A stretch of 47,771 nt of DNA from Lujinxingiaceae bacterium. GTDB lineage: Bacteria > Myxococcota_A > Bradymonadia > Bradymonadales > Bradymonadaceae. The notes beneath the pieces were generated by a model. That model was given only the letters and a program-made list of their open reading frames with translations. It did no database searches and had not been told where the DNA came from. Made by a program: the position numbers and the translations under genes. The DNA lies in NCBI GenBank assembly GCA_013697635.1, contig JACCWM010000196.1, positions 1 to 47,771 of the forward strand. Direction: 5' to 3'. This document shows positions 1-16,823 of the stretch, in pieces (positions within the stretch are counted from its first letter, which is position 1; every line of letters begins with the position of its first letter).

Positions 1-1144
1 GGCCAATGCCGTGCCCGTGACCGTGACCGACGGCGGTGTCACATTGTCCGTATCGACCGAGGTCAACGTTGTCGCCGATTTGACGGGAGCGTTTGCGCCG
101 ACCGGAAACGGATTGACGCCCGCTGGCCCCACCCGCGTACTCGACACGCGCTCGACGGGCAAGCCGCTTCGCGCCGACGAGATTCGCGAGGTCGACGTGC
201 ACGCACCGGCCGGCGCCACGGGCGTGGTCGCAACGATTGCCGTCATCGGCGGTGAACTTCCGGGCTTCCTGACGGCATTTGCCTGCGGAACCACCTTGCC
301 TTCGACGAGCAACATCAACTTTGCGGCTCAGACGGTCGTCGCCAATACGGTGGTCTCGCAACTGGGCTCGACCGGCAAGCTCTGCGTGCGCTCGGTGGCC
401 GATGCCCACGTCATCGTCGATGTCACAGGCTACCTCTCGGCCACCGGACCGCTGTCTTATCAGGCTCTGGCGCCCACGCGTCTGCTCGATACCCGCAGCC
501 CCACAAGCATCTACACCAACCGCCTGGCCGCTCAACAGGTCATCGAGTTGCCCATCCAACCTTTGGCAGGAATGCCCTCGAAGGTCTGGTCGGTGGTCGC
601 CAACATCACCGCGGTCGGCGCCTCCAACTTGGGCTTCATGACGGCCTATCCTTGCGGCGGCTCGGTGCCTGCGACCTCCTCATTGAACTTCGTGCCTGCG
701 AAATCGGTGGGCGCCTTGACCGTCTCCTCAATCGGCAGCCAGGGCTCGCTGTGCATCTACTCGAGCGCACGTGCGCACCTGATCGTCGACCTCGTCGGTG
801 TCTGGGTCCACGACGAGCAAGCCGCTCCGCACGCACCCCAAAGGATCAGCCCGGCCGACCAGGGCGACCCGCGCTCACCGAACGACCCGGACAATGACAA
901 CGCCGGCGGCGAAGACAGCGAGGACGCCTTCAGCGGTGGCGATGTGCACGAGCACGATGTCCACGGCGAAGAAGGCCACATTGACCAGATCTCCGGTGGC
1001 GCCACGGCCGACAAGCAGGCCTCACGTGTCGTCGTCGAAAGCGGCGGATGCACGGTCGCGCCCGGTCAAACAGGCTCTCAGCTGCCCGTCGTGCTGGCGG
1101 CGTTGATTGGATTGGCCTGGCTTGGGCGTCGCCGCAAGCGTTAA
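1..1144 (+). CDS. Repeat-containing surface protein with MYXO-CTERM-like tail (5' partial)
   Basis: The reading frame is open to the window edge, so the N-terminus is missing; about 380 residues are visible. Two copies of a roughly 125-residue unit can be aligned by eye. Each has a VDxTGxx strand, then a PTRxLDTRS motif, then two cysteines (FACG/YPCG and KLCV/SLCI), and a third VDLVG strand closes the array. This unit occurs in secreted or cell-wall-associated bacterial proteins, often in tandem; its role is unclear. An acidic Asp/Glu/His-rich stretch follows. The C-terminus is a Gly-Cys, a hydrophobic segment (LPVVLAALIGLAWLG) and RRRKR, matching the MYXO-CTERM type of sorting tail, so the protein is probably anchored at the cell surface. 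A strong hairpin terminator lies 22 nt after the stop. The function is not recognised. Confidence 0.8.
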   Translation, partial: ANAVPVTVTDGGVTLSVSTEVNVVADLTGAFAPTGNGLTPAGPTRVLDTRSTGKPLRADEIREVDVHAPAGATGVVATIAVIGGELPGFLTAFACGTTLPSTSNINFAAQTVVANTVVSQLGSTGKLCVRSVADAHVIVDVTGYLSATGPLSYQALAPTRLLDTRSPTSIYTNRLAAQQVIELPIQPLAGMPSKVWSVVANITAVGASNLGFMTAYPCGGSVPATSSLNFVPAKSVGALTVSSIGSQGSLCIYSSARAHLIVDLVGVWVHDEQAAPHAPQRISPADQGDPRSPNDPDNDNAGGEDSEDAFSGGDVHEHDVHGEEGHIDQISGGATADKQASRVVVESGGCTVAPGQTGSQLPVVLAALIGLAWLGRRRKR

Positions 1145-1166
1145 CCGCGAGGCTCTTGCACCCAAC

Positions 1167-1204
1167 AAAAAAGCCGCCCGTGCCTTGCGCCGGGCGGCTT
1201 TTTT
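1167..1204. terminator. Bidirectional rho-independent terminator
   Basis: A perfect stem, AAGCCGCCCG (1171-1180) and CGGGCGGCTT (1191-1200), has a 10-nt loop. It is preceded by a run of A and followed by a run of T, so it can terminate in both directions. It separates the surface-protein gene (plus) from the convergent five-gene block ending at 1311 (minus). Confidence 0.9.
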
Positions 1205-1227
1205 GGGCCAAAAAAATGACGACTTTT

Positions 1228-1300
1228 GGGGGAGGAGCCCGGCTTCCATCGCCGCAAACCCACATGGTTTCAGGCTAACATGGCGTTCCACCCCCGGGCG
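1228..1300 (-). repeat. Dispersed intergenic element, copy A
   Basis: On the minus strand this reads CGGGGG (1291-1296), 41 nt, then ATGGAAGCC (1241-1249). The 41-nt interior holds AAACC-CACAT-GGTTT, a 5-bp stem. The copy starts 11 nt after the stop of the GyrA-pinwheel gene and lies before the shared terminator. Its distal end diverges (CCGGGCTCC instead of CCCGGCTGCC). Confidence 0.75.
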
Positions 1301-1310
1301 TTGGCGTTTT

Positions 1311-2495
1311 TCAGTCGCTGCCGCAGGGCAGCGCGGTGAGGCCGATGATGTGCTCGCCATCGGCCAGTTCGGTGACGCGGGTGCCCTTGGCGGCGCGCCC
1401 GAGAAGTTGAAAGTCGGGGGTGGGCATGCGGTGGACACGACCGAGATTGGTGATCAGAGCCAGGTCGTCGTGGGGATCGCAGGGGGCGATTGCGGCGACG
1501 CGGTCGTTGGGGTTGAGGCGCATGAGCTGCATGCCGGCGCCACCGCGGCCCTGGGGGCGAAATTCGTCGAGGTCGAGGCGTTTGCCATAGCCTTGCTCGG
1601 TGATCACGGCGAACTGTTTGACGCGCTCGCCCAAGAAAGCGCCGACGAGCTCATCGTTGTTGGCGGCGAGCTTCATGACGTTGACGCCGACGGCCTTGCG
1701 GCCCATGCTGCGCATATCGTAGGCGTCGAATTGGATGCCCTGGCCAAGCGCCGAGGCGCAAAAGACCGTGGTCTTGTGGTGGCCAGCCAGTACGGCGCAG
1801 GGCTCGTCGCCGTCGTTGAGCAGAAAAGCCTCCCGGCCGGTCTTGTCGATCAGGCGGCCGAGCTCGTCGGCGTCGGTGGCCTTGCCCTTGGCCTGGCGGG
1901 TGATGTGGATGATCCGCCCGGAAATCGCCTGGCGCGCCAGGGTGAAAGCGATCTCCTCGCCCTGCTCGAGAAAGAGCACGTCGCGAATCGAGCGGCGCTC
2001 GTCGCCAGGCCAGTTGGGAATCAAGCGCACGTCGATGCCGAAATAGCGCCCGCGGTTGCTGAATAAGAAGACGGCCTCGGGATCTCCGACGTAGCGGATG
2101 CCGCGCACATGACCGGTGGCCTCGGGGCCTTCGATCGGCTGGGGCGATTCGGCGACCTCGATCTCGGGGCCGTGCATCTTGCAAAAACGCCCCGTCGAGG
2201 TCATCACAAAGCTGGCGTGGCCAAAGCTGTCGGTGACGCGGCGCTCGACGATGCTCTCGATACGCCGCGCCGACTCGCTGGCACCGTCGTCGCGGGCCGT
2301 AACGCTCGATTTCTTGTTCTTCCCAAGCTCGCGAAGCGCGGCGATCAGCGCGCCGTCCCAGCCGCCAAATACTTCGACTGCGGCGTCGAAGAGATCCTCG
2401 TCGCCAACCGAGACGTTCATCTCGAACAGCTCTTCGTAGCGCTCGTCGTCAGCGGCCAGGGCGATGATCTTCTCGATGATTTCTTGGGCGTTCAT
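1311..2495 (-). CDS. Free-standing GyrA C-terminal-domain (beta-pinwheel) protein
   Basis: Roughly the last 270 residues match the DNA-wrapping C-terminal domain of DNA gyrase subunit A, with recurrent pinwheel blades. One blade carries FRPQGRGGAGM, close to the GyrA-box; others read GQGIQFDAYDMRSMGRKAVGV, split here as GQGIQFDAYDM and RSMGRKAVGV, and LGRVHRMPTPDFQLLGR. The GyrA breakage-reunion core and catalytic Tyr are absent. A short helical N-terminal domain (about residues 1-60) precedes the blades. I chose the ATG at 2495, which has AAGGA upstream; a longer frame to 2672 would run into the preceding gene. It is the last gene of the minus-strand block, 97 nt after the GHKL ATPase gene. 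The likely role is binding or bending DNA, inferred from the fold. It could also be a gyrase modulator. Confidence 0.75.
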   Translation of the reverse strand: MNAQEIIEKIIALAADDERYEELFEMNVSVGDEDLFDAAVEVFGGWDGALIAALRELGKNKKSSVTARDDGASESARRIESIVERRVTDSFGHASFVMTSTGRFCKMHGPEIEVAESPQPIEGPEATGHVRGIRYVGDPEAVFLFSNRGRYFGIDVRLIPNWPGDERRSIRDVLFLEQGEEIAFTLARQAISGRIIHITRQAKGKATDADELGRLIDKTGREAFLLNDGDEPCAVLAGHHKTTVFCASALGQGIQFDAYDMRSMGRKAVGVNVMKLAANNDELVGAFLGERVKQFAVITEQGYGKRLDLDEFRPQGRGGAGMQLMRLNPNDRVAAIAPCDPHDDLALITNLGRVHRMPTPDFQLLGRAAKGTRVTELADGEHIIGLTALPCGSD

Positions 2496-2592
2496 CAACT
2501 GGGGGTCCTTGCGGCAGAAATGACGTGAGCATGGCGCGGGCGAGCAACACCATAGCCCAATTTGCCGGTGGCACAACTTCGATCCGGTCAAC

Positions 2593-4197
2593 TCACGACT
2601 GGCCGAGGCGGTGCGCGCGCCGGCCAACGGCGTAGGTGAGCACGGTCTCCATGAACTGGGCGTGGCGAGCATCGTTTTGCGACTCCAAAATCAGCTCGAG
2701 CAACATGGCCGCCGCCCACTCGGGCTCGTCGATCGCTGCGGCAAGCGCGCGCACGTCTTTGTCGTTCGTGTTGACGAGCAAGACGGCCTTGCCATTAAAA
2801 AAATTCGGCCGCGGGGCCTGCAAATCGTCGGCGTTCAACACCGCGTCGAGCTCACCGACGAGCAGGCCGGGGTGGTTGCAAAATTTCGCAGGAACCAGCG
2901 CACCCGAGAGATCGTAGTAGCGCGGCACCCCCGAGCGCAGGCCAGCCTGCTGGAGGAGCACATGCAGCTCGCTCAAAAGCCGAGGATCGCAATCATTGAC
3001 CGCGTCGCTGCTAAACCAGCCAAAGCGTTGCTCGAGGGGGTGGATGTTGTACTTGAATTCGAGCAGGGCGCGCACCAAGCGCCAGGCTCCACTGCCAGCC
3101 GCGCCGCGCAGCACCAGGTGATCGCTTGCCACCGCATCGAGAATCGGGCCCGGTTGCGAGGCAAAGCACAGCTTGTTTTTGCGCGCTGCAGCGCGACAAT
3201 CGGCAAATGAGACCGCTTCGTTGTTGAGCTTGGGAAAGAGCGCCCGCTGGCGCCAGGCGCGCTTGAACTCGTTGCGGCCCAGATAGTTGACGAGCAACCC
3301 GCAGAGCTGATCGTGTCGCTCAGGGTGGGCAGTGTCTTTGGCGGCCTGCTCGATGGCCGCGACCAGACGTTCGGGAAGCTCGACGGTGGCGAACTGATCC
3401 ATGAGCTTGAGCGCCTTGTGATAATTCTTGTCCTCGAGGATCTGGTCGCGCGTCAGGGTGTGCTCGAGATAGCGCGAGTCAATCTTGCAGGAGATGTACG
3501 GCCAGGGGGCATGATCTTGCTCCTTGAGCGTCAATCCCTGATTGTAATAGCCCATCAAGCCCTTCTCGTCGGTAACGAAGCCGATGACCAGGCGCGTGCC
3601 GTCGGCCTCGTGGGTGAGCTTGCAAAGCGAGTCGATGTCGAAGGGTGCGGATACGCTCGTGCCCTCGAAGATCACCGGGATGCGCGCATGCTTGCACCAG
3701 TAGCTGACGACATTGCGCGCGCGGCCTCGAAGCGCCTCGGCCTCCCCACGGCCGATCTCCTTGATGATGCGAATGTGCGTGCCCTCGACGGGCTCGTCGA
3801 GCGCATAGAGCTCAAAGGAGCGGTCCTCGAGAAAGACAACTCGCCAACTCTCGCCGGCGCGCCCGGTCTCGACGATCACGAGCTGTGGCGCGATCGCGAA
3901 GACCGAGACAAAGCCAATGCCAAAGCGCCCGATCTTGGTCAGATCGTCGTCCTTGGCTGAGCTGAACAGGCGCGTAAGCTTGGTCTCGATGATCTCGCGC
4001 GTCATGCCCTCGCCCCAGTCATCGACCTCGATGATGAGCGTTCCCTGCCCGAAATCGCCGGCCTTGGGCTCAAAGCGCGTCGCGATCTCGACCTCGCCGG
4101 TGCCAGCGTCGATCGAGTTTTGAACCAGCTCGCGCAAAAACGAGAGCGGGTCAGAGAACTGATGGACGAGATCATCTAAAACACTGCGAGTTTCCAC
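2593..4197 (-). CDS. Hsp90-type GHKL ATPase with intact nucleotide motifs
   Basis: This 534-aa protein starts with GTG at 4197 and lies 5 nt after the preceding paralog gene. The N-terminal GHKL Bergerat fold is clear: N-box E23-L-V-Q-N27-S-I-D30-A, G1-box D60-W-G-E-G-M65 and G2-box G90-R-F-G-I-G-F. The set resembles Hsp90 or MORC-like enzymes, which use ATP-driven dimer closure. After it come a GTHIRIIKEI strand and ARIPVIFEG, the transition to an Hsp90-like middle region. The same order occurs in the three paralogs upstream. The C-terminal half (about residues 220-534) is not recognised. No nuclease, TOPRIM or transmembrane segment is visible. Co-directional, near-contiguous spacing suggests one complex with its neighbours. 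It differs from HtpG in length and in lacking an evident C-terminal dimer domain. Confidence 0.75.
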   Translation of the reverse strand: METRSVLDDLVHQFSDPLSFLRELVQNSIDAGTGEVEIATRFEPKAGDFGQGTLIIEVDDWGEGMTREIIETKLTRLFSSAKDDDLTKIGRFGIGFVSVFAIAPQLVIVETGRAGESWRVVFLEDRSFELYALDEPVEGTHIRIIKEIGRGEAEALRGRARNVVSYWCKHARIPVIFEGTSVSAPFDIDSLCKLTHEADGTRLVIGFVTDEKGLMGYYNQGLTLKEQDHAPWPYISCKIDSRYLEHTLTRDQILEDKNYHKALKLMDQFATVELPERLVAAIEQAAKDTAHPERHDQLCGLLVNYLGRNEFKRAWRQRALFPKLNNEAVSFADCRAAARKNKLCFASQPGPILDAVASDHLVLRGAAGSGAWRLVRALLEFKYNIHPLEQRFGWFSSDAVNDCDPRLLSELHVLLQQAGLRSGVPRYYDLSGALVPAKFCNHPGLLVGELDAVLNADDLQAPRPNFFNGKAVLLVNTNDKDVRALAAAIDEPEWAAAMLLELILESQNDARHAQFMETVLTYAVGRRAHRLGQS

Positions 4198-4202
4198 GCC
4201 TG

Positions 4203-6440
4203 TTACCTGCTTTCAATAGGGGCCAAGACCCGTTCAAGATTTCTGCGATGTGCGAGCCGCCAATCGGAGATCGCACCGCGATGAAGCCGGCGAAGCTCGA
4301 GAAAGACCGCCTGCAAGACCAGGGATACCGCGATCGGATCGTCTGGCCTCTGCAGGGCATAGGCGACCACGGGGTGCGCTCTAAACAGCACCATGCTCCA
4401 CTCGTTGAGCGATGCGATGCGCGGCGCCGGGCCGCCATAAAACGCGATGCTGGGCGCACCGAGCACATGGTGAGACTCGTTGGCAAGCGTTGCGCTCATC
4501 AGCTCGCTGACTAAACGCCCGAGCTGATGCTCAGCATCACTGGAAGCTTGTGCCTTCGGCGAGTCGGCGCTCGGGGCCGGCCGGCCAGGCGCCGGATCGA
4601 CGGTGAGTTCGCCCCAGCTCTCGCGCTCAAGCGTGCCCATGATGTGTGGGCCGAAGACGGCGCGGAAAATCGCGTTCGTCGCGACGTGAAACTGCAAATA
4701 CAGGTTGTCAGGGTTGCGGTTGACGTGAGGGATCCACAGGGCCTGATCCTCTCTGGGCAGCAGCCAGCACGCGCCGGCCGCCTCGCCGCGGATGAAGGCA
4801 TTGATCTGGCGAAGCGAGAGCAACTCGCCGGCCACGTCGTCAAACAAGGGCGTGTCGGCGATCGCGCCGAGCGCCTCGAGGATCTGGTCGGTCAGCGTCG
4901 CGCTCGCAAGCTCGCTCCAATCCAGCGCGTGAACCTGCCAGACCGAAAGCCTGTCCCCGGCGGCGCAGGTGTCGCTCCAGCTTTGAAGGGCCGCCTCGCT
5001 GAGGTCGATCGCCGCAGCGATGCGTCCGAGCAAACGACCATCGAGCAGCTCATGCAAGTAGTCGACGGTTTGCGTGGCGGGCATGCGCGCTTTGGGATGA
5101 TGCATAAACTCAGGCAGCGCCTCGAGAATAGCCAGGCCGAGCGCGTCGAGCTCGGCCGTGCTCCGTGGCCCGTCGAAGCGCTCATTGGGCTGAAAATCGC
5201 CACACAACACCATGCTCAAGCGCATGCAGCGAACGCCCAGGGGCCGTTGCACGAGCAGGCGGCCATCGCGCACAAAGGCCACCATGCCGGACATGTCGAA
5301 GGTGTCCATGCCGACGACCGCGCGCATCCGGGCGTGCTCCAAAACCATTTGGTGGGGATAGTGGATCTTGGACAGCCCTTCGGACCACACGAGCCCCTCC
5401 CAGCGGTCGCGATTTTTCTGTGTTTCGCGCACCGCGTGCAGGCGATCGGTGAGATCGACGATCTCGTCGACAAAACGCAAGAAGAATGCCTCGGACTCAT
5501 CCGGCTCAGCATAGATGATCGGCGCATTGACCATGGCCCTGGCGTCGTCGCCATGCTCTCGACAGATGTACAGACGCCTGTGACCGACGCGGCGCAAAGC
5601 ATGGGCGATCGAAATGGGAACCGATGATCCGTTGAGCGAGTCTCCAACGGTGGCGTAGAGGGCGAGGCCTTCCGCGGCGCTAAAGAATGCGCGCTCGATC
5701 TCGGCGCTCAGCGGGGCCGCTTCGAATTGCCGATGAGCGCGCAACAGTGTCGGACGAAGCCAATCCTGCTGGACGGCGCGCTCGCCCGGGGTCAGGCTCG
5801 TGATAAAGCGTGTGAACAAGCGCCAGGTGGCTTCGCGCAGGACCTCGTCATGCAGAGTGCGCCAGGCCTCGTCCAAACGGCCGTTGAGCATGTCGAAGAA
5901 CTGGATGAAGTGGCGCGGTTGGATGCGCTCGCGAAGGTAGATGCGTGTGCCTTGCAAGCCGTCTTCGTTGCGAACTTTGCGCGTATTCAAAGCCCGCTCC
6001 GGGGCAAGGCGCGCGAGCACCGCCTGCTCACCGGCGCGAAGCAGCAGCCCGGCGCCCCCTTCAGGGCCCACCGATTCGATCACGATCTCACGCGGGCCAA
6101 GCGCCTTGGCCGCGTTGACCGCGATCGCGATGTGGCGAACGGCCCGTTGGCGTGCGTCGCTGCGCTCTGAAAACAAGGCGGATTGAAGCTCGCTCAGATC
6201 CTCGATGCCCAGGCTCTGCCCATCGAAGCATACCTCCATCTCGTCGGTGTCGATCACGAACTCGATGACCTTGGCCCCCAGCAGGTGTGCGGCCTTGACG
6301 AGCTCGAGCACGTAGTGGTGCGGATCGACGAGCTGAAAGCGCTCCAACTTGTCCGTGGCGCGCTCGGCGTCGACTTGAAACTGCCCGCGCCCCGCGAGTT
6401 TGCCCGCTGCGCGCGCCTTTGCAAGCAAGTCACCCGTCAC
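4203..6440 (-). CDS. Degenerate GHKL/Hsp90-like paralog 3 (internally deleted form)
   Basis: This 745-aa protein is the third tandem paralog. Its GTG start overlaps the stop of the preceding gene as GTGA. It shares with the other two the opening LxKARxxGxLxxxGxFxxDAERA, the VDPHHYVLELVKAAHLLGA segment, the RQRAVRH segment and a C-terminal HPVVAYALQRPDDP block. Relative to both siblings exactly 100 residues are missing between GRLDE and AWRTLH (junction near 5866-5873). The deletion removes the strand that ends the ATPase-like domain and the start of the middle region. The GHKL Asn is replaced (ELVKAAHLL), so ATP hydrolysis is doubtful even before the deletion. The frame is intact, so the protein is probably made. 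A Pro/Ala/Ser-rich linker precedes the last 120 residues or so. The function is unknown. Confidence 0.7.
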   Translation of the reverse strand: MTGDLLAKARAAGKLAGRGQFQVDAERATDKLERFQLVDPHHYVLELVKAAHLLGAKVIEFVIDTDEMEVCFDGQSLGIEDLSELQSALFSERSDARQRAVRHIAIAVNAAKALGPREIVIESVGPEGGAGLLLRAGEQAVLARLAPERALNTRKVRNEDGLQGTRIYLRERIQPRHFIQFFDMLNGRLDEAWRTLHDEVLREATWRLFTRFITSLTPGERAVQQDWLRPTLLRAHRQFEAAPLSAEIERAFFSAAEGLALYATVGDSLNGSSVPISIAHALRRVGHRRLYICREHGDDARAMVNAPIIYAEPDESEAFFLRFVDEIVDLTDRLHAVRETQKNRDRWEGLVWSEGLSKIHYPHQMVLEHARMRAVVGMDTFDMSGMVAFVRDGRLLVQRPLGVRCMRLSMVLCGDFQPNERFDGPRSTAELDALGLAILEALPEFMHHPKARMPATQTVDYLHELLDGRLLGRIAAAIDLSEAALQSWSDTCAAGDRLSVWQVHALDWSELASATLTDQILEALGAIADTPLFDDVAGELLSLRQINAFIRGEAAGACWLLPREDQALWIPHVNRNPDNLYLQFHVATNAIFRAVFGPHIMGTLERESWGELTVDPAPGRPAPSADSPKAQASSDAEHQLGRLVSELMSATLANESHHVLGAPSIAFYGGPAPRIASLNEWSMVLFRAHPVVAYALQRPDDPIAVSLVLQAVFLELRRLHRGAISDWRLAHRRNLERVLAPIESR

Positions 6441-9016
6441 GATCGCCTCTTCTGTGCGCTTGCGAGCACCCGGTTGAGGTGTTCACGGTAGCCTGCGCTC
6501 CAGTTCACGTCGCGAAAATACGGGCGAAGCGCAGCGCTCGCAGCCAAAGCCAGCATCGAGACTGCAACCGGGTCGTGGGGGCGAGCGAGCGCGTGGGCAA
6601 CGAGCGGATGCTCGGAGAAGAGCGTGATGCGGGCGCCGTCGGTCTCCACGGCGCGCACCGTCGGCCCAGCGCGAAGCGTGATCAATGCCACGCCCGCGCT
6701 AGCGTCGCCTTTGATCACGACGGCCAGGAGTTGTTGGACCCTCGCCACCAGCTGAGTTGAGTGGTTGTGTTGGGCTGCTGGCGGCGCAACCGCCGGCGTG
6801 TTGTTGGCGGGCGGCGTTGTGGACGATGGCGATGGCCCTGGTGATGGTGCCGGTGTTGACGATGAATTGACGGCTCGCAGCGATGTAATCGTAAATTCGC
6901 CAAAGACGGCGTTCAAGATTGAGAGTACCGGCTCGTCGCTTCGAATGAAGAGCCTGTCGGGCTCGCTCCTCATCTGGGCGAGCCAGTCGCTCATGTTCAT
7001 CTTTGCAGGCAGTACGTAGCATCTTTGGGCGACAATATGCTCGTAGATCTGGCGAAGCGATTGGTCGGCGCCAACCAGATTGGGGAAGATCGGCAGGTCT
7101 GCGGCCGGCCCGAGCATGACAAGCTTGGCCAAAGGTGTTGCCCGGCTGCACCGCCAGGGTGAGACCCGCTGGGGATCACTTGATGTCGTCTCCAGCGTCG
7201 CCTGCCATTGGCTCAGGGCCTCGCCTTCAACTGGAAAGTCCGCGGTCAGACGCCAGAGCAAGCGCTCACTGAGCAGCTTTTCGAGATAGGATAGCGCCAC
7301 ATCCGTGGGCTTGTGCTGCAGATGCTCGTTTACAAATGATGGCAGCGCCTCGAGCATCGCGATCACCAAGGCCGTGAGCTCGGGCGTGACGGCCGGCCCG
7401 TCGAATGCGGCGTTGGGTGTGAGCTCTCCGGAAAAAATGATCGTCAGACCGCTCAAGGTTCCATCGCTCAAGTGTTGGCGCTTGAGCAGGCGCCCCTGCT
7501 TGACGAAGATCACCGTGCCACGCGCGCTCGAATCGTTGAGCCCGATGGCCACGCGCAAATCCCCATGCTCGATGACCTTTCGATACGGGTAATACATCGG
7601 TGCTGGTAGGGAATCCCTGGGGGTTTGCTCCCAGAGCTTGCGATTTTGTTCGGCCAGGCGAAAGATCTCGACGCGATCGGTGAGGTCGACGACCTCGTCG
7701 GCAAAACGCAAGAATAAGGCTTCGGGCTCGCCATGCGCCGCATAGATCACCGGCGCGCCGACCAGCCGCTCGGCCTCATTGGACGGTCGCCGACAGATAT
7801 GGATGCGCGTGAGCTCTCCGATGCGCTGGGTCGCCTCCGTGATCGAGATCAAGGGTTTTTTGGGCAGCGAGCCGTCGGCTTGCGCATAGATCGCCGTGGT
7901 CGCCAGCTTGAAGAAAAATCCCCGATCGGCGACCAGATCTTCGGGCGCGATGCGACCCCCAAAATGCGGGCTCTTGGTGGTGTGCAGGCGCACGGGACGG
8001 TCTTTGGTGCGCTCGTGGGCGCGCAACACCAGTTGGCGAAGCCAGTCCTGTTTTTCTTCGATCACCTGCGCCGCCAGCCCGCTGACATGCATCTCGAGCG
8101 AGCGCCACATCGCCGCTTGCACGACGCCGCCGTGCAGGGTCTGCCAGGCCTCGTCTTGCACAAACGCGCTCTGCGAGAGGTTGGTCGTCAGCCGGCGCGA
8201 ATCGACGATCGCCTCGACGCCGACCACGTCTGCGCTAAAGATCTGAGTGTCGATAAAAACGCCGTGTTGCAAGACATTGATGCGCAACTTGTCGTCGTCC
8301 GAGATTCCCAGCCGGCCGTTTTCGAGCGGCGTGTCGATCTCGACTACGGCCAGCGCCCGCTTACTTAGCCCGTGCCCTTGATTGATGCTGACCCGGTTGA
8401 CGAAGATTGGGACCTTGGCATAACGCGCCCGCTCGCCCAGGGCGACGACCTCGTTGAGCCGGCCCTTGAGCTTGTCGAAGAACTGCATGATGTGGCGCGT
8501 CTGCGTGCGCTGGCGCAGATAGACGCGGGTGCCAAGCGTCGCCGCTTGGATCTTGATGCCGGTAAGTGACGCTCCGGCGACAAGGCGCACCAGCCGCGGC
8601 TCGGCGTCGCGTCGAAGCACGAGGCGACAGCCGCCGTAGGCGCTAACCGACTCCACGACGATCTCGCCCGGCCCCAACGCCTGGGCCGAGCTTGCCGCAA
8701 TCGCCATATGGCGAACGGCACGCTGGCGATCGTCGGTGCGCGACGAAAACGCTGCCCCGTAAAAGTCCTCCAGGTCATCGAAGCCCAGCGTCTGCCCGTC
8801 AAAGAACACCTCCATCTCGTCGGTGTCGATCTCGAACTCGATGACCTTGGCTCCCAGCAGATGCGCAGCCTTGACGAGTTCCAGAACATAGTGGTGCGGA
8901 TCGACGAGCTGAAAGCGCGCCATCTTCTCCTTGGCGCGCTCGGCATCGAGTCGAAACTCACCCTGCGCCTCGAGCCTGCCCGCCCCGCGAGCCTTTTCCA
9001 GCCACTCGGTCGTCAC
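6437..9016 (-). CDS. Degenerate GHKL/Hsp90-like paralog 2
   Basis: This 859-aa protein starts with GTG at 9016, overlapping the upstream stop by 4 bp (GTGA). The N-terminus (1-110) is laid out like a GHKL domain, but the N-box is E46-L-V-K-A50-A-H-L-L-G-A. Ala sits where the Mg-binding Asn should be and Leu where the Asp should be. D73-G-Q-T-L stands in place of DxGxG, and no GxxGxG lid motif is seen. Next come GTRVYLRQRTQ, then AKVPIFVNRVSIN, paralleling GTHIRI and ARIPVIFEG in the intact ATPase downstream. A VDLTDR block (about residue 455), a long unrecognised middle, a Pro/Ser/Thr-rich linker near residues 715-755 and a conserved 110-residue tail (HPLVAHALARPHDP) follow. It is probably a non-hydrolysing partner in a complex with its paralogs and the intact ATPase (inference). 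The family is not recognised. Confidence 0.7.
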   Translation of the reverse strand: MTTEWLEKARGAGRLEAQGEFRLDAERAKEKMARFQLVDPHHYVLELVKAAHLLGAKVIEFEIDTDEMEVFFDGQTLGFDDLEDFYGAAFSSRTDDRQRAVRHMAIAASSAQALGPGEIVVESVSAYGGCRLVLRRDAEPRLVRLVAGASLTGIKIQAATLGTRVYLRQRTQTRHIMQFFDKLKGRLNEVVALGERARYAKVPIFVNRVSINQGHGLSKRALAVVEIDTPLENGRLGISDDDKLRINVLQHGVFIDTQIFSADVVGVEAIVDSRRLTTNLSQSAFVQDEAWQTLHGGVVQAAMWRSLEMHVSGLAAQVIEEKQDWLRQLVLRAHERTKDRPVRLHTTKSPHFGGRIAPEDLVADRGFFFKLATTAIYAQADGSLPKKPLISITEATQRIGELTRIHICRRPSNEAERLVGAPVIYAAHGEPEALFLRFADEVVDLTDRVEIFRLAEQNRKLWEQTPRDSLPAPMYYPYRKVIEHGDLRVAIGLNDSSARGTVIFVKQGRLLKRQHLSDGTLSGLTIIFSGELTPNAAFDGPAVTPELTALVIAMLEALPSFVNEHLQHKPTDVALSYLEKLLSERLLWRLTADFPVEGEALSQWQATLETTSSDPQRVSPWRCSRATPLAKLVMLGPAADLPIFPNLVGADQSLRQIYEHIVAQRCYVLPAKMNMSDWLAQMRSEPDRLFIRSDEPVLSILNAVFGEFTITSLRAVNSSSTPAPSPGPSPSSTTPPANNTPAVAPPAAQHNHSTQLVARVQQLLAVVIKGDASAGVALITLRAGPTVRAVETDGARITLFSEHPLVAHALARPHDPVAVSMLALAASAALRPYFRDVNWSAGYREHLNRVLASAQKRRS
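8901..8959. repeat. 59-bp direct repeat shared by paralog genes (copy 1)
   Basis: This 59-nt stretch is identical to 11417-11475. Both encode the segment around DAERAKEKMARFQLVD near the start of paralogs 2 and 1. Identity at silent sites implies recent duplication or gene conversion confined to the 5' ends, because the rest of the two genes has diverged further. Confidence 0.8.
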
Positions 9017-11535
9017 GTGTTTCTCCGTTCGTTGGACGGGTTGAGGATGTCGCTGATTTGTGCGCGATGGGCCGCGCCCCAGGCAATGTCCTTGAGGTAG
9101 GGGCGAAGCGCGCCGCGCGCCGCCACGGCCACCATATGGGCGGCGAAACGATCGTCTGGACGGGCCAGAGCGTGGGCGACGACCGGATGCTCGGCAAAGA
9201 GCGTGATAACCTGGCCATCGGTCGCAGCAATCGCCGGCGCGGGCCCGCTTTTGAAGCGGATCACAGTGGCATTGAGCAGGGGTTCGATGTGAGCGCGCAG
9301 GCGCTCTTCGTCGCTCATCCGCGTTTCCACGGGCTTTGGTGTCGCCGCGGGCTTTGGCGAAGCCACGGGCTTTGGCGAGGGCTGCGGGACTTGAGGTTCC
9401 CCCCGAAATTGGCCATTACCACCGGTCACGACCTGGCCGTTGATCGTGACGCTGCTTTTCGAAGGCATGACGCTCTGCAAAGCCGCGATCGTCGGTTTAC
9501 CGAAGACATTTTCGAGAATCGAAAGGCTAACGCGGGGTTGAATATACAACGTCTGGGTATTCTGCTCGCTCATCGATCTCCAGGCCCGCAAGTCGCCGGA
9601 TTCGGGCACCAGGATGCAACGATTGTCCGCAATGTGTTCATGGATTTGGCGCAGCGAATGGTCGACGCCTCGCAGGTCGGGGAAAAGCGCCACGTCGGCC
9701 GCCGGGCCCAGAAGTTCGATCGTTTCCGCGGCTGTGGCGTCGTCTCTATTCCACAGGCTTGGCTGGCTCGCGCTGCGCAAGGCCAGCTGCCAGGCCGCAA
9801 ACACGATCGCCTCGATGTGAAAATCCGACCCGAGACAACGAAGCAGACGGCCGTTGAGCAGCGCCCTGAGATAATCGAGTGCATAGCTCTTTTTCATGTA
9901 TTGCAGATGCTCGTTCACGAATCGCGGCAGGGCATCGAGCAGCGCAAGGCCCAGGACGCTGAGCTCGGCGCAATGGGCCGGGCCGTCAAAGAGCTCGTTG
10001 GCAGCGAGCTTACCCGAAAAGATGAAGCTCAGCCCCCGCGAGCTCTGCTCACTGAGGTGACCGCTCTTGAGCGGGCCGCCCTCTTTGACAAAAATGACCG
10101 TGCTGTGCGCACCAGAGCCGTTGAGGCCCACCACCACGCGCAACTCCCCGTGATCGAGCGCCATCTGATGGGGGGACCAGTTGCGTGGGGGCGCCGCATC
10201 TCGGCTTGAGCTTGCCCACTTCGCCTTGTTGTTAAGCGCCTGTCTGTGCACCTCGATGCGCTCAGTGAGGTCGACGACCTCGTCGGCGAAGCGCAAGAAC
10301 AGGGCCGTGGGCTCATGGAGGTCGGATAAAATGACGGGCGCGCCGGCCAGCGCTTCGGCCTCCTTGGAGGGGCGCCGGCAGATGTGGATGCGTGTGTTCT
10401 GGCCGATGCGTTGGGTGGCCGCAGCGATCGCGATCAGCGGCATCGATTTATCGGCTTGCTGGTAGATCGGCGTCATTGCCACGCGGGTGAAAAAGCCGTG
10501 ATCGGCGACTCTGTCCGTTCGCGCATGGGCGCGCAGCACGAGTTGGCGCAGCCACAGCTGGCCTTCGCCGAAGATCTCGAGCAAGCTCAGGTTGGCCACG
10601 TAGAGCTCGAGCGAGCGCCACATCGCCTCTTGCACGACGCCGCCGTGCAACATCTGCCAGGCCTCGTCTTGGACAAAGGCGCTTTGCGAGAGGTTGGTCG
10701 TCAGCCGGCACGAATCGACGATCGCCTCGACGCCGACCACGTCGGCGGTAAAGACCTGGGTATCGATGAAGACGCCATGCTGGAGCACCTTGATCTGCAT
10801 GTTGCCATCGACCGCGATCCCCAGTCGCCCACGCTCGTGGCTGGTAGCGATCTCGACTACGGCCAGTGCTTTGTCGCTCAGCCCCGAGCCCCGCGTGATG
10901 TCTACCCCGTTGACCACGATCGGTATCGTCGCATAGCGCGCCCGCTCTTCGAGCGCGAGCGTCTCATTGAGCCGTCCCTTGAGCTTGTCGAAGAACTGCA
11001 TGATGTGGCGCGTCTGCATGCGCTGGCGCAGATAGACGCGCGTGCCCACGGCAAGAGCCGACGAAATCTTGACAAGGCCCGGCGTAATCTCGGGCCCAAG
11101 GCGCACCGGCACAGGCTCGACCCCGCGCCCGAGCACCAGCCGACAGCCTCCGCGCGCAGCGATCGACTCCAAGACGATCTCGCGCGGCCCAAGCGCCTGG
11201 GCGGCGTTGACCGCGATCGCCAGGTGGCGCACGGCGCGCTGGCGGTCGTCCGTGCGCGCCGAAAACGCCGCTGAGTAAAAATCGCTGACCTCCTCGAAGT
11301 CCAGCGTCTGCCCATCGAAGAACACCTCCATCTCGTCGGCATCGATCACGAACTCGATGACGCTAGCCTCGAGCAGATGCGCGGCCTTGACCAGCTCCAA
11401 GACATAGCGATGGGGGTCGACGAGCTGAAAGCGCGCCATCTTCTCCTTGGCGCGCTCGGCATCGAGTCGAAACTCGCCACGCGCCTCGAGCCTGCCCACC
11501 CCGCGAGCTTTTTCCAACCAATCGGTCGTGGTCAT
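9013..11535 (-). CDS. Degenerate GHKL/Hsp90-like paralog 1, first gene of the block
   Basis: This 840-aa protein has an ATG start at 11535. It has the same architecture as the next gene: a GHKL-like N-terminal region with the Asn-less box ELVKAAHLLEA, GTRVYLRQRMQ, a strand reading IPIVVNGVDI, a middle region with VDLTERIEVHRQ, a linker of repeated SPKP/TPKP units near residues 705-735, and a conserved tail (HPVVAHALARPDD). A PSLWNRDD-containing region has no clear counterpart in the shortest paralog. It begins the minus-strand block, with 339 nt of spacer upstream. No signal peptide or membrane helix is seen, so it should be cytoplasmic. GHKL ancestry is my inference from motif order; a profile search is needed to settle it. 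Confidence 0.7.
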   Translation of the reverse strand: MTTTDWLEKARGVGRLEARGEFRLDAERAKEKMARFQLVDPHRYVLELVKAAHLLEASVIEFVIDADEMEVFFDGQTLDFEEVSDFYSAAFSARTDDRQRAVRHLAIAVNAAQALGPREIVLESIAARGGCRLVLGRGVEPVPVRLGPEITPGLVKISSALAVGTRVYLRQRMQTRHIMQFFDKLKGRLNETLALEERARYATIPIVVNGVDITRGSGLSDKALAVVEIATSHERGRLGIAVDGNMQIKVLQHGVFIDTQVFTADVVGVEAIVDSCRLTTNLSQSAFVQDEAWQMLHGGVVQEAMWRSLELYVANLSLLEIFGEGQLWLRQLVLRAHARTDRVADHGFFTRVAMTPIYQQADKSMPLIAIAAATQRIGQNTRIHICRRPSKEAEALAGAPVILSDLHEPTALFLRFADEVVDLTERIEVHRQALNNKAKWASSSRDAAPPRNWSPHQMALDHGELRVVVGLNGSGAHSTVIFVKEGGPLKSGHLSEQSSRGLSFIFSGKLAANELFDGPAHCAELSVLGLALLDALPRFVNEHLQYMKKSYALDYLRALLNGRLLRCLGSDFHIEAIVFAAWQLALRSASQPSLWNRDDATAAETIELLGPAADVALFPDLRGVDHSLRQIHEHIADNRCILVPESGDLRAWRSMSEQNTQTLYIQPRVSLSILENVFGKPTIAALQSVMPSKSSVTINGQVVTGGNGQFRGEPQVPQPSPKPVASPKPAATPKPVETRMSDEERLRAHIEPLLNATVIRFKSGPAPAIAATDGQVITLFAEHPVVAHALARPDDRFAAHMVAVAARGALRPYLKDIAWGAAHRAQISDILNPSNERRNT
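11417..11475. repeat. 59-bp direct repeat shared by paralog genes (copy 2)
   Basis: Identical to 8901-8959; see that entry. It lies within the first 40 codons of paralog 1. Confidence 0.8.
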
Positions 11536-11557
11536 CGCATACTCGCCGAGCGAGAGC

Positions 11558-11584
11558 TATTTATCAGCCTACAGGCTACTACAA
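11558..11584 (-). promoter_or_regulatory. Possible sigma-70 promoter of the five-gene block, with internal palindrome
   Basis: On the minus strand TTGTAG (11579-11584) and TAAATA (11558-11563) are 15 nt apart, shorter than ideal. Between them lies AGCCTGTAGGCT (11566-11577), a palindrome with 5-bp arms that could be an operator. The call is weak; nothing better is seen before the ATG at 11535. Confidence 0.25.
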
Positions 11585-11645
11585 AAGCCGGGACCGGCAA
11601 CCTCGAAGCGTTGAGGGTGGGGGTCAAAAATCAGGTCAAAGCCCC

Positions 11646-11725
11646 GGGGGCAGCCGGGCTTCAATGCCGGAAAATACGCTCAGTTACAGGCCCATCAGGC
11701 ATCGATCCCCCATTTCTTCTGGGGG
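11646..11725 (-). repeat. Dispersed intergenic element, copy C
   Basis: On the minus strand this reads TGGGGG (11707-11712), 41 nt, then ATTGAAGCCCGGCTGCC (11649-11665). The first box is the 3' arm of a hairpin whose arms are 11707-11712 and 11720-11725 (7-nt loop). This copy lies between two divergent genes, so it follows no gene end. Confidence 0.7.
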
Positions 11726-11763
11726 CTGTGGTGCCGGGCGAGCCTTGGTGCAAGCCTCGTTGC

Positions 11764-11793
11764 TTGACAGATATTCGCGCCGATGACTAAGCT
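11764..11793 (+). promoter_or_regulatory. Probable sigma-70 promoter of the PEGA-protein gene
   Basis: A perfect TTGACA (11764-11769) is followed after 18 nt by TAAGCT (11788-11793). It is about 80 nt upstream of the start at 11875, where AGGAG serves as ribosome binding site. Confidence 0.45.
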
Positions 11794-11874
11794 CGCGGGC
11801 CTGAACCATTTGGAGGAAGTGCGCACGAGCTTTGGCGTGCCAGGAAACAATCGATAGGTGTAGGAGCAATAAGC

Positions 11875-13254
11875 ATGGCCGACGAGACGACCAAGGGCCC
11901 ATCCGCAGAGGAGATTGTCGACAATCTGGCTGCGGAGTTGGGGGTTGAGAACGAGAAGGTTCCTCAATCCGATAAGTCCGGTGACGATATGATGGCGGGC
12001 CTGGGCGGCATATTTGACGTGCCCGGCGGGGCCAAGAAGAAAAAGAAGAAGACGCCGGCCGAGAAGGCTGAGGCCGCCGAGAAGGCTGAGGCCGCGAAGC
12101 CTAAAAAGGCCAAGAAGGCCAAGAGCCCTGAGATGGCCGGTCTCGAAGGTCTCCTGACGCCATCGAAAGACGCCGCTGACGTCGACCTGTCCAGCTCGCC
12201 TGGCGACTATCTGAGCGACGGCGATCTGGGCGATTACACGCCCAAGCAAAAGAACCCGATGGTGCTGGTGCTCGTGGGCATCATCGTGCTCTTGCTCGTC
12301 GCTGTCGTGGTCATCGTCGGCACGACCACCGACAAGCTCGACGACGTGGTCCGCGTCGTCCAGGGCGACTATCGCGAGTACAAGCTCGCCGAGAAGCGCC
12401 GCATCGAGGAGGACCATCTGGCCGCTCAGATGGACGCCCTCGATCGCTTCGGCAACCTGCTGATCACGGGCAATCCCTGGCATGCGCTCATTCGCCTCAA
12501 CGGCGAGATCCAGTATGGCCAGACCAGCGGCGGTGAGTGGCGCGAGCTGCGCCTGGGCGTCTCGACGGTGTTTCAAAATCTCAAGGTCAAGGAGCTTCAA
12601 AAGCTCGAGGTCAGCGCACCAGGCCACCAGACCCAGGTCTACGAGGTGCGCGAGGGCATGTGGCAGGCCGCCCAGGGCACGATGGACTTTCAGTACGCGC
12701 TGACGGCCAACCTGTTGCCGGCCTCCGATCGCGACTACCAGGAGTTCAATAACCGCATGGGCGCCGATCTCGACAACGAGTACTATGGCGTGATCAACAT
12801 CACGACCATGCCGGCCGGCGCCAAGGTTATCTTCAACAACCATCCGCTGCTCGACAAAGATGGCAAAGAGCTGCTTACGCCCGTGAGCTTCGAGCGCAAC
12901 TGGGTTCGCAACGAAGCCGGCAAGCTCGAGGAGCAGCTTGCGCGCGTCGACACGCCGCCCGATCGTGGCCACAAAATCCAGGTCCAGATGCCCGGCGATG
13001 AATCGATGCCCAAGTATCTGGCCAGCATCGATCGCCGCATGTGGAAGTGCGAATGGAAGGACGACGCGGCGATCAAGAAGCTCGGCGCCAAGGCCACCGT
13101 CCAGCATCAGTGCGATTACAAATGGTCGCTCGAGCTCGACCTCAACGGGCTCAAGCGCTACATCGATGCTCGCGAAGCCGAAGAGCAGCGCATCATCGAG
13201 CAGCAAAAATCGCTGCAGGCGGAATCACCCACACCGGCTGGTGAGCAGGGCTAA
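11875..13254 (+). CDS. Membrane-anchored PEGA-like domain protein with Lys/Ala-rich cytoplasmic segment
   Basis: This 459-aa protein starts at ATG 11875, preceded by AGGAG. Residues 1-125 are hydrophilic and contain a KKKKKK run and EKAEAAEKAEAAKPKKAKKA, a low-complexity Lys/Ala/Glu stretch. One transmembrane helix follows (about residues 127-147, MVLVLVGIIVLLLVAVVVIV). The rest is probably periplasmic. It has a short coiled-coil-like part and two beta modules: ALIRLNGEI..LEVSAPGHQTQVYEV and INITTMPAGAKVIFNNHPLL. The second matches the PEGA motif of surface and signalling proteins of myxobacteria. The orientation suggests a link between cytoplasm and envelope, but the function is unknown. The FAH-family gene follows after 21 nt and may be co-transcribed. 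Confidence 0.75.
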   Translation: MADETTKGPSAEEIVDNLAAELGVENEKVPQSDKSGDDMMAGLGGIFDVPGGAKKKKKKTPAEKAEAAEKAEAAKPKKAKKAKSPEMAGLEGLLTPSKDAADVDLSSSPGDYLSDGDLGDYTPKQKNPMVLVLVGIIVLLLVAVVVIVGTTTDKLDDVVRVVQGDYREYKLAEKRRIEEDHLAAQMDALDRFGNLLITGNPWHALIRLNGEIQYGQTSGGEWRELRLGVSTVFQNLKVKELQKLEVSAPGHQTQVYEVREGMWQAAQGTMDFQYALTANLLPASDRDYQEFNNRMGADLDNEYYGVINITTMPAGAKVIFNNHPLLDKDGKELLTPVSFERNWVRNEAGKLEEQLARVDTPPDRGHKIQVQMPGDESMPKYLASIDRRMWKCEWKDDAAIKKLGAKATVQHQCDYKWSLELDLNGLKRYIDAREAEEQRIIEQQKSLQAESPTPAGEQG

Positions 13255-13275
13255 ATCACAATCGAAGGGCCTTCC

Positions 13276-14073
13276 ATGTTGCTCTACCGCGTCATGCACA
13301 CGCCCAGCCAGCGCGTCTGCTATGCCCTCAAGCAAGACGGCCTCTACCTGGAGGTCACCACGGCCTTCGAGGCGATCAGCACGACACTGGCCGCCGGCGA
13401 GCAATTGGCCCTGGGCACTCGCCTGGGCAGCGATCACGAGGTGCGCCTGCTCGCCCCGACGACGCCCTCCAAGGTGATCTGTGTCGGCCTCAATTACCGT
13501 CGCCACGCCGAGGAAATGGGCAAGACCGTGCCTGAAGAGCCCCTGATCTTTCTCAAGCCCTCGACGGCGGTCATCGGCCCAGAAGAGCCCATCTTGTTGC
13601 CGCCCCAGGCCAGCGAAACCCACCATGAGGGCGAGCTCGGAATCGTCATCGGCAAGCGCGCAGCGGGCCTGAGCGAGCAAGAGGCGCTCTCGGTGGTGCT
13701 CGGCTACACCTGCGCCAATGATGTCACCGCCCGCGATATCCAACGCCGTGAGCAGCGCTACACGCGCTCCAAAGGCTTTGACAGCTTCTGTCCGCTGGGA
13801 CCGGCCATCGCCCTGGCCCCGAGCTTTGTGCCCGGAGAACATCGCCTGATCTGCCGCGTCAACGCCACAGTGCGCCAGTCTTCGACGCTCAACGATTTCA
13901 TCTTTTCGATCCCCCAGGTCATCGCATTCATCAGCCAGGTGATGACGCTGCTGCCCGGCGACGTCATACTCACGGGCACGCCGGCCGGCGTGGGCGCAAT
14001 CGTCGAGGGCGACATGGTCGAAGTCGAGATCGACGGCATTGGCGTGCTGCGCAATCTCGTCCGCTCCAAATGA
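13276..14073 (+). CDS. Fumarylacetoacetate hydrolase (FAH) family protein
   Basis: This 265-aa protein has ATG at 13276 with AAGG upstream. The FAH catalytic domain occupies about residues 70-262: VICVGLNYRRHAEEMG, FLKPSTAVIGPEEPI, and the metal ligands in HHEGELGIVIG (two Glu) and DVTARDIQ (Asp). GDVILTGTPAGVG near the C-terminus is typical of the family. Members cleave or hydrate 2-oxo- or 1,3-dioxo-acids (acylpyruvases, oxaloacetate decarboxylases, 2-hydroxyhepta-2,4-diene-1,7-dioate isomerases). The length fits the YcgM-like acylpyruvase subgroup. The exact substrate cannot be read from sequence. Neighbours are unrelated (PEGA protein, gyrB). Confidence 0.9.
   Translation: MLLYRVMHTPSQRVCYALKQDGLYLEVTTAFEAISTTLAAGEQLALGTRLGSDHEVRLLAPTTPSKVICVGLNYRRHAEEMGKTVPEEPLIFLKPSTAVIGPEEPILLPPQASETHHEGELGIVIGKRAAGLSEQEALSVVLGYTCANDVTARDIQRREQRYTRSKGFDSFCPLGPAIALAPSFVPGEHRLICRVNATVRQSSTLNDFIFSIPQVIAFISQVMTLLPGDVILTGTPAGVGAIVEGDMVEVEIDGIGVLRNLVRSK

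Positions 14074-14252: not shown

Positions 14253-16823
<2,571 letters not shown>

Follow-up and report, generated by a model that had tools for sequence, protein, structure and literature searches.

A Compact Hsp90-Type ATPase Paired with Catalytically Dead Paralogs in Myxococcota: A Proposed Hemi-Active Hsp90

Introduction

Hsp90 is a dimeric clamp in which the N domains bind ATP while the M domain supplies an arginine for hydrolysis, and the Hsp90s described so far are, to our knowledge, dimers of active chains. The division of labour between the two arms is still being explored, with mixed dimers made by engineering; a review on asymmetry in Hsp90 dimers (PMC11687934) cites designed heterodimers. 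Here we analyze a locus in a stretch of 47,771 nucleotides (nt) from a Lujinxingiaceae bacterium (contig JACCWM010000196.1), hereafter the window, in which three tandem genes for paralogous proteins, named P1 to P3, precede the gene for an ATPase of the GHKL type with 534 amino acids (aa), named A. We propose, with a probability of roughly 0.6, that A is an ATP-driven Hsp90 and that P1–P3 are catalytically dead Hsp90 sisters working with it, an arrangement that may be called a 'hemi-active' Hsp90.

The window is contig C170 of an assembly of 6.2 Mb in 213 contigs, and its MYXO-CTERM gene and named relatives place it in the Myxococcota. An earlier note on this DNA, based on its letters, had described a five-gene block of three eroded GHKL/Hsp90-like paralogs, one intact GHKL ATPase and a free GyrA pinwheel, and had suggested a clamp-like DNA machine lacking a cleaving part. 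All five open reading frames (ORFs) were confirmed on the minus strand, from 11535 down to 1311, in the 5' to 3' order P1, P2, P3, A and pinwheel; their coordinates also bear out the 4-bp overlaps (GTGA) at the P1/P2 and P2/P3 junctions and the gap of 5 nt between the P3 stop and the A start. The block consists of four genes (P1–P3 and A), not five, as follows:

9013..11535, minus strand: P1, pseudo-Hsp90, 840 aa; degenerate GHKL domain (~1-195), S5-like module (200-315), second alpha/beta plus S5-like region (355-545), further segment (600-700) and C-terminal helical module (742-832)
6437..9016, minus strand: P2, pseudo-Hsp90, 859 aa, tandem duplicate of P1
4203..6440, minus strand: P3, pseudo-Hsp90, 745 aa, the first S5-like module deleted in frame
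2593..4197, minus strand: A, compact Hsp90 (N-M-C), 534 aa; ATPase motifs complete, Arg250 of the middle domain present

A promoter scan of positions 1000-12200 of the window found no sigma-70-like promoter.

A Compact Hsp90 of the Active Type

The relationship of A to Hsp90 extends over its whole length. A profile made from the alignment of A with 48 relatives, compared with all PDB sequences, had as its top match full-length Escherichia coli HtpG (2iop; residues 12-529 to 14-608, E 8.4e-15) and also matched TRAP1 (27-518 to 58-616), whereas hhalign with an alignment of Myxococcota HtpG covered 492 columns (E 4.2e-25). The C-terminal half of A alone matched the M-C part of HtpG with a probability of 85% and, as regards the C-terminal dimerisation domain of A, the HtpG profile match reaches residue 608 of 624. 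Consistent with these results, the AlphaFold model of A (predicted local distance difference test, pLDDT, 91.9) has its best Foldseek matches in TRAP1/Hsp90 (E 1.2e-21). Pfam recognizes only HATPase_c_3/HATPase_c in A (HATPase_c_3 E 2e-10), and the NCBIfam matches, namely HtpG, PRK14083 and sacsin, are all sub-threshold. A MutL/MORC-type GHKL ATPase was considered for A and rejected, since MutL models match the N domain only and the full-length matches are to HtpG/TRAP1.

The canonical GHKL motifs reported earlier for the 534-aa protein are present as stated (E23, N27, D30, D60-W-G-E-G64 and G90RFGIGF96). Across 50 A sequences, residues E23, N27, D30, D60, G62, G64, G90, G93, G95 and R250 are invariant, the last being the middle-domain arginine in a DSxxLxxxxxR motif that aligns with DSDDLPLNVSR of HtpG. 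Because a canonical HtpG is encoded elsewhere in the same genome (L054, 793 bits), A is an additional, compact Hsp90. By fold and family it is an Hsp90 over its full length, apparently a working one, with predicted ATPase and chaperone activity. Of note, ORFs of 976-1029 aa in four other genomes (G242, G254, G260 and G366; families f40/f43) resemble A over its N-terminal 300 residues alone (E 1e-33 to 1e-40); they may form another family of Hsp90-like proteins or be fusions of A and P.

Paralogs with an Hsp90-Like Fold and Lost ATPase Residues

Since an iterated search had merged the profiles of A and P, the claim of their homology is based on N-terminal profiles (first 300 residues) built separately for the two: hhalign aligned 259 columns with E 1.6e-18, far above chance, which upholds the earlier view that P is paralogous to A. 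The AlphaFold model of P1 (pLDDT 86.7) has TRAP1/Hsp90 as top Foldseek matches (E 6.6e-14), and a profile match between P and HtpG reaches a probability of 92%. The GHKL fold surmised for the paralogs is thus present, according to structure prediction for P1 and to profile homology. The P proteins have no Pfam match, and in six long members no known domain was found above Pfam cut-offs.

The residues required for ATP turnover have largely gone. Among 60 P sequences, the equivalent of Mg-binding Asn27 is kept in none and replaced by Ala in 47, in agreement with the substitution first noticed in the window; the equivalent of adenine-binding Asp60 is also kept in none, with F, W or Y in 50, although this count rests on an ungapped alignment in which the following residue is Asp in 34. 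Of the G2 glycines, Gly90 is kept once (Arg in 41) and Gly93 twice (Ala in 56), and the equivalent of middle-domain Arg250 is retained in eight sequences; the catalytic Glu position is still Glu in 49. The residue counts for 50 A and 60 P sequences therefore support the notion of one intact GHKL ATPase with pseudo-ATPase paralogs. Judged by these residues, P is Hsp90-like and catalytically dead: it has the fold but lacks the ATPase features, and is not an Hsp90.

The S5-like module recurs in P beyond its N-M part, and the C-terminus consists of a short strand and three helices. This end resembles those of A and HtpG in the order of elements and in an HP motif, but the similarity by profile is weak. 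The family possesses a conserved motif of its own, FQLxDPxxYVLELVQAAxxxGAT, and its proteins are often much larger than A (up to ~2100 aa), with strong divergence past residue 300.

Describing these paralogs as eroded is misleading. P1 and P2 share 77% aa identity over their first 300 residues, and the ratio of nonsynonymous to synonymous substitution (dN/dS, Nei-Gojobori, first 300 codons) is 0.150/0.614, or ~0.24, which shows that P is under purifying selection and is not decaying; intact P genes are present in dozens of genomes. P3 is missing ~100 codons equivalent to P2 188-287 (near residue 189 of P3), a deletion that takes out the first S5-like module of the middle domain and keeps the reading frame, and an ACGAGG microhomology lies in P2 at both ends of the segment missing from P3. 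Three tandem copies, one of them minus a module, look like diversification of what would be the passive arm.

Conserved Pairing and Co-evolution of A and P

The neighbourhood survey of homologs shows that A and P co-occur and adjoin, whereas the pinwheel is not conserved with the block. Among 143 relatives, P (E<=1e-3) and strong A (E<1e-30) are present in the same 29 genomes. In a wider sample, an even draw of 379 Myxococcota genomes, A was found in 79, P in 81 and both in 77 (Fisher p ~1e-72, uncorrected for phylogeny), with a multi-copy and patchy distribution (84 of 379 genomes). Of 112 places with A, no fewer than 92 have P next to it, and in all 92 the two share a strand; this adjacency is a lower bound, since three candidates were scored per genome and P is in fact present at several of the 20 remaining places. 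In 91 of the adjacent places P lies downstream of A, with a median of 30 nt between the matched stretches; the P-P-P-A order of the window is a minority order, seen also at loci L061, L088 and L051.

Distance trees of A and P, constructed for 45 adjacent pairs, correlate at 0.72, a value reached in only 2 of 5000 trials when partners were shuffled within genomes, a procedure that holds species relatedness fixed. The evolution of each A thus follows that of its own P, a pattern to be expected if the two proteins touch. Near-obligate co-occurrence, adjacency and partner-specific co-evolution characterize the A/P pair.

Two loci deserve separate mention. The genome of the window carries a second, short A/P unit (L051:1457-4920, minus strand; G000:C106), in which P is represented by two overlapping ORFs of 527 and 714 aa; a frameshift, a fault in the assembly or a genuine split of the gene could account for this. 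In a single-contig genome (G005), an orphan A (L094:8127-9680) sits beside polyphosphate kinase and an orphan P is found elsewhere (L096:7352-9844), possibly one pair parted by rearrangement.

A Proposed Mechanism

What we infer is the A/P complex itself, with its stoichiometry and clients. In the proposed scheme, the C-terminal modules and GHKL faces of A and P would join the two into hetero-dimers or hetero-oligomers, and ATP would be bound and hydrolyzed by A alone, which would open and close the clamp. P would be the inert arm, its duplicated and family-variable middle modules holding particular clients or scaffolding several A subunits, so that exchange of P (three tandem versions here) would change the choice of client and leave the motor unchanged. 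Such hetero-assembly appears the most economical explanation because of the conserved pairing, the co-evolution, the shared front-end fold and the probably shared C-terminal module. The fuller proposition, namely a natural and obligately asymmetric Hsp90 in which one active subunit is combined with a family of dead subunits having duplicated middle domains, motor and client-reader being split between genes and several co-evolved pairs occurring per genome, seems to us evenly balanced between right and wrong.

Several results weigh against the hemi-active interpretation. The P profile had no match among PDB sequences, and the comparison of the P C-terminal module with the Hsp90 dimerisation domain gave a weak hhalign probability of 24-44%. 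Whole-chain Foldseek template modelling scores are low, at 0.3-0.45, which is usual where several domains are flexibly linked, and leave the domain arrangement unsettled. The AlphaFold models are of single chains (A and P1), and gene clustering around ~50 A/P loci revealed neither a constant third partner nor a conserved client.

Regarding neighbours, protein kinases are classic clients of Hsp90 in eukaryotes, and genes for Ser/Thr protein kinases lie directly beside A/P units at L052, L066 and L089 (confirmed by Pfam) and at L121 (by cluster only); such kinases are common in these genomes and are found at pinwheel loci too. A tandem pair of uncharacterized genes (~390 and ~340 aa, without Pfam match) also recurs near A/P (L098:3222-5395, L047, L095 and L122), the first gene of the L098-type pair being weakly similar to PADLOC LmuB (E 5e-5).

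Alternative Explanations and Flanking Genes

The chief rival, which we regard as unlikely but well worth weighing, dispenses with a shared clamp: A would be a homodimeric Hsp90 and P would comprise co-chaperones, scaffolds or dedicated clients derived from A. Partner-specific co-evolution fits direct contact under this reading and under the shared clamp alike. The frequently far larger size of P and its divergence after residue 300 would suit such a role, as would the retention in the operon of P3 lacking a middle module, the number of P per A, which is not fixed at one (three here), and the separate orphans of genome G005. Yet purifying selection has preserved in the P proteins a front end complete with GHKL and S5-like parts, something difficult to account for if they were simply adaptors.

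That A/P is an accessory system for conflict or phage defence, with an Hsp90-like sensor at its core as in TmtA (Tiamat), is improbable. The N domain of A does match the PADLOC models of TmtA (E 2e-11), and the multi-copy, patchy occurrence of A/P, together with its insertion at a syntenic site, would suit a defence function. However, the match is limited to the shared GHKL domain; PADLOC analysis of the block and ten neighbours returned only this domain and one weak LmuB match (E 5e-5), with no strong defence family, and the six long P proteins contain no effector domain. The search for carriage on plasmids and viral contigs yielded nothing beyond the N domain: a GHKL match of 98 aa on a single plasmid, and viral matches confined to GHKL.

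The gyrase-like DNA clamp of the earlier note, in which ATPase, pseudo-ATPases and a DNA-wrapping pinwheel would act without a nuclease, has very little left in its favour beyond the fact that, in this window alone, the genes adjoin on one strand. The flanking genes are the following:

1311..2495, minus strand: GyrA C-terminal pinwheel as a free-standing protein (394 aa with the ATG at 2495 as likely start), outside the system
11875..14073, plus strand: 459-aa gene and 265-aa FAH-like gene on the other flank, outside the system, with gyrB next at 14310

As called, the pinwheel ORF spans 1311-2672 (453 aa), and its overlap with A is due solely to an upstream start chosen mechanically; since its relatives measure ~387-446 aa, the likely start is the ATG at 2495, 97 nt past the A stop and uncoupled from A. 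The gene is conserved in the family at 42-53% identity, and more distantly in the order and class. At four loci of relatives (L107, L108, L111 and L113) the pinwheel adjoins the 459-aa orthologue, the FAH-like gene (present at three of these loci) and gyrB, and neither A nor P intervenes; it is exactly in this interval, between the pinwheel and the 459-aa gene, that the window has its A-P-P-P unit. No A/P was found near the pinwheel at 12 pinwheel loci in relatives, nor does a pinwheel flank A/P outside the window in the relatives surveyed. Moreover, three genomes have the pinwheel without A or P (G013, G016 and G018), and six have A/P with at most ordinary GyrA-level matches (G006, G008, G009, G014, G019 and G020, several of these assemblies being incomplete). 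Synteny and phyletic pattern thus rule out the pinwheel as an A/P subunit, each gene group occurring without the other and the pinwheel and gyrB-side genes adjoining directly in relatives; with the pinwheel outside the block, a DNA clamp without cleaving part is unsupported, the more so as the closest full-length relatives of A are Hsp90/HtpG/TRAP1 and not GyrB, MutL or MORC. The N-terminal part of the pinwheel protein is not gyrase, and its FGGWxxALxAAL-like stretch might be a DNA-binding repeat.

That the P genes are decaying duplicates without function, as lost catalytic residues and the P3 deletion might suggest, is hardly credible and already contradicted by intact P in dozens of genomes, the motif of their own, the dN/dS of 0.24 and the near-perfect co-occurrence with A.

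Comparison with Known Systems

For the flanking pinwheel gene only, Gac of Borrelia, a DNA-bending nucleoid protein and repressor, offers the precedent of a free-standing GyrA C-terminal domain (PMC10127594); Gac is produced from a start that lies within gyrA, whereas the pinwheel of the window is a separate gene, outside the A/P system.

Among GHKL proteins, TmtA shares with A an N domain over residues 14-106, but it is a single protein of 1300-1800 aa of which ~100 residues match, and its full-length architecture is absent from A. The PRK14083 (HSP90 family protein) and sacsin N-terminal domain families of NCBIfam also have the GHKL N domain in common with A (E 1.7e-12 and 6.9e-13, respectively), with scores that lie far below the cut-off for the former (46.6 against 455 bits) and just below it for the latter (48.9 against 50 bits). 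We know of no pseudo-ATPase partner for either family.

Our literature search brought up no case of an active Hsp90 encoded alongside natural, catalytically dead sisters, an absence that is weak evidence, and parts of a cross-kingdom survey of Hsp90 genes (PMC1525184) present HtpG of 588-681 aa in three groups, none of the A/P kind. If the proposal is true, Hsp90 asymmetry becomes testable in nature: an active arm parted many times from dead arms, with co-evolving partners, would be a natural test of whether one ATPase site suffices and of what the second arm does. The analysis also provides P, a large Myxococcota family without Pfam match, with a fold and a partner.

The closest comparison remains that with HtpG, TRAP1 and Hsp90, with which P shares the fold of the N-M part and to which A corresponds in its collinear N (GHKL), M (S5-like, with the catalytic Arg) and C regions over the full length of HtpG; A differs in being ~90 aa shorter, in being separate from the canonical HtpG of its genome and in being accompanied by dead sisters.

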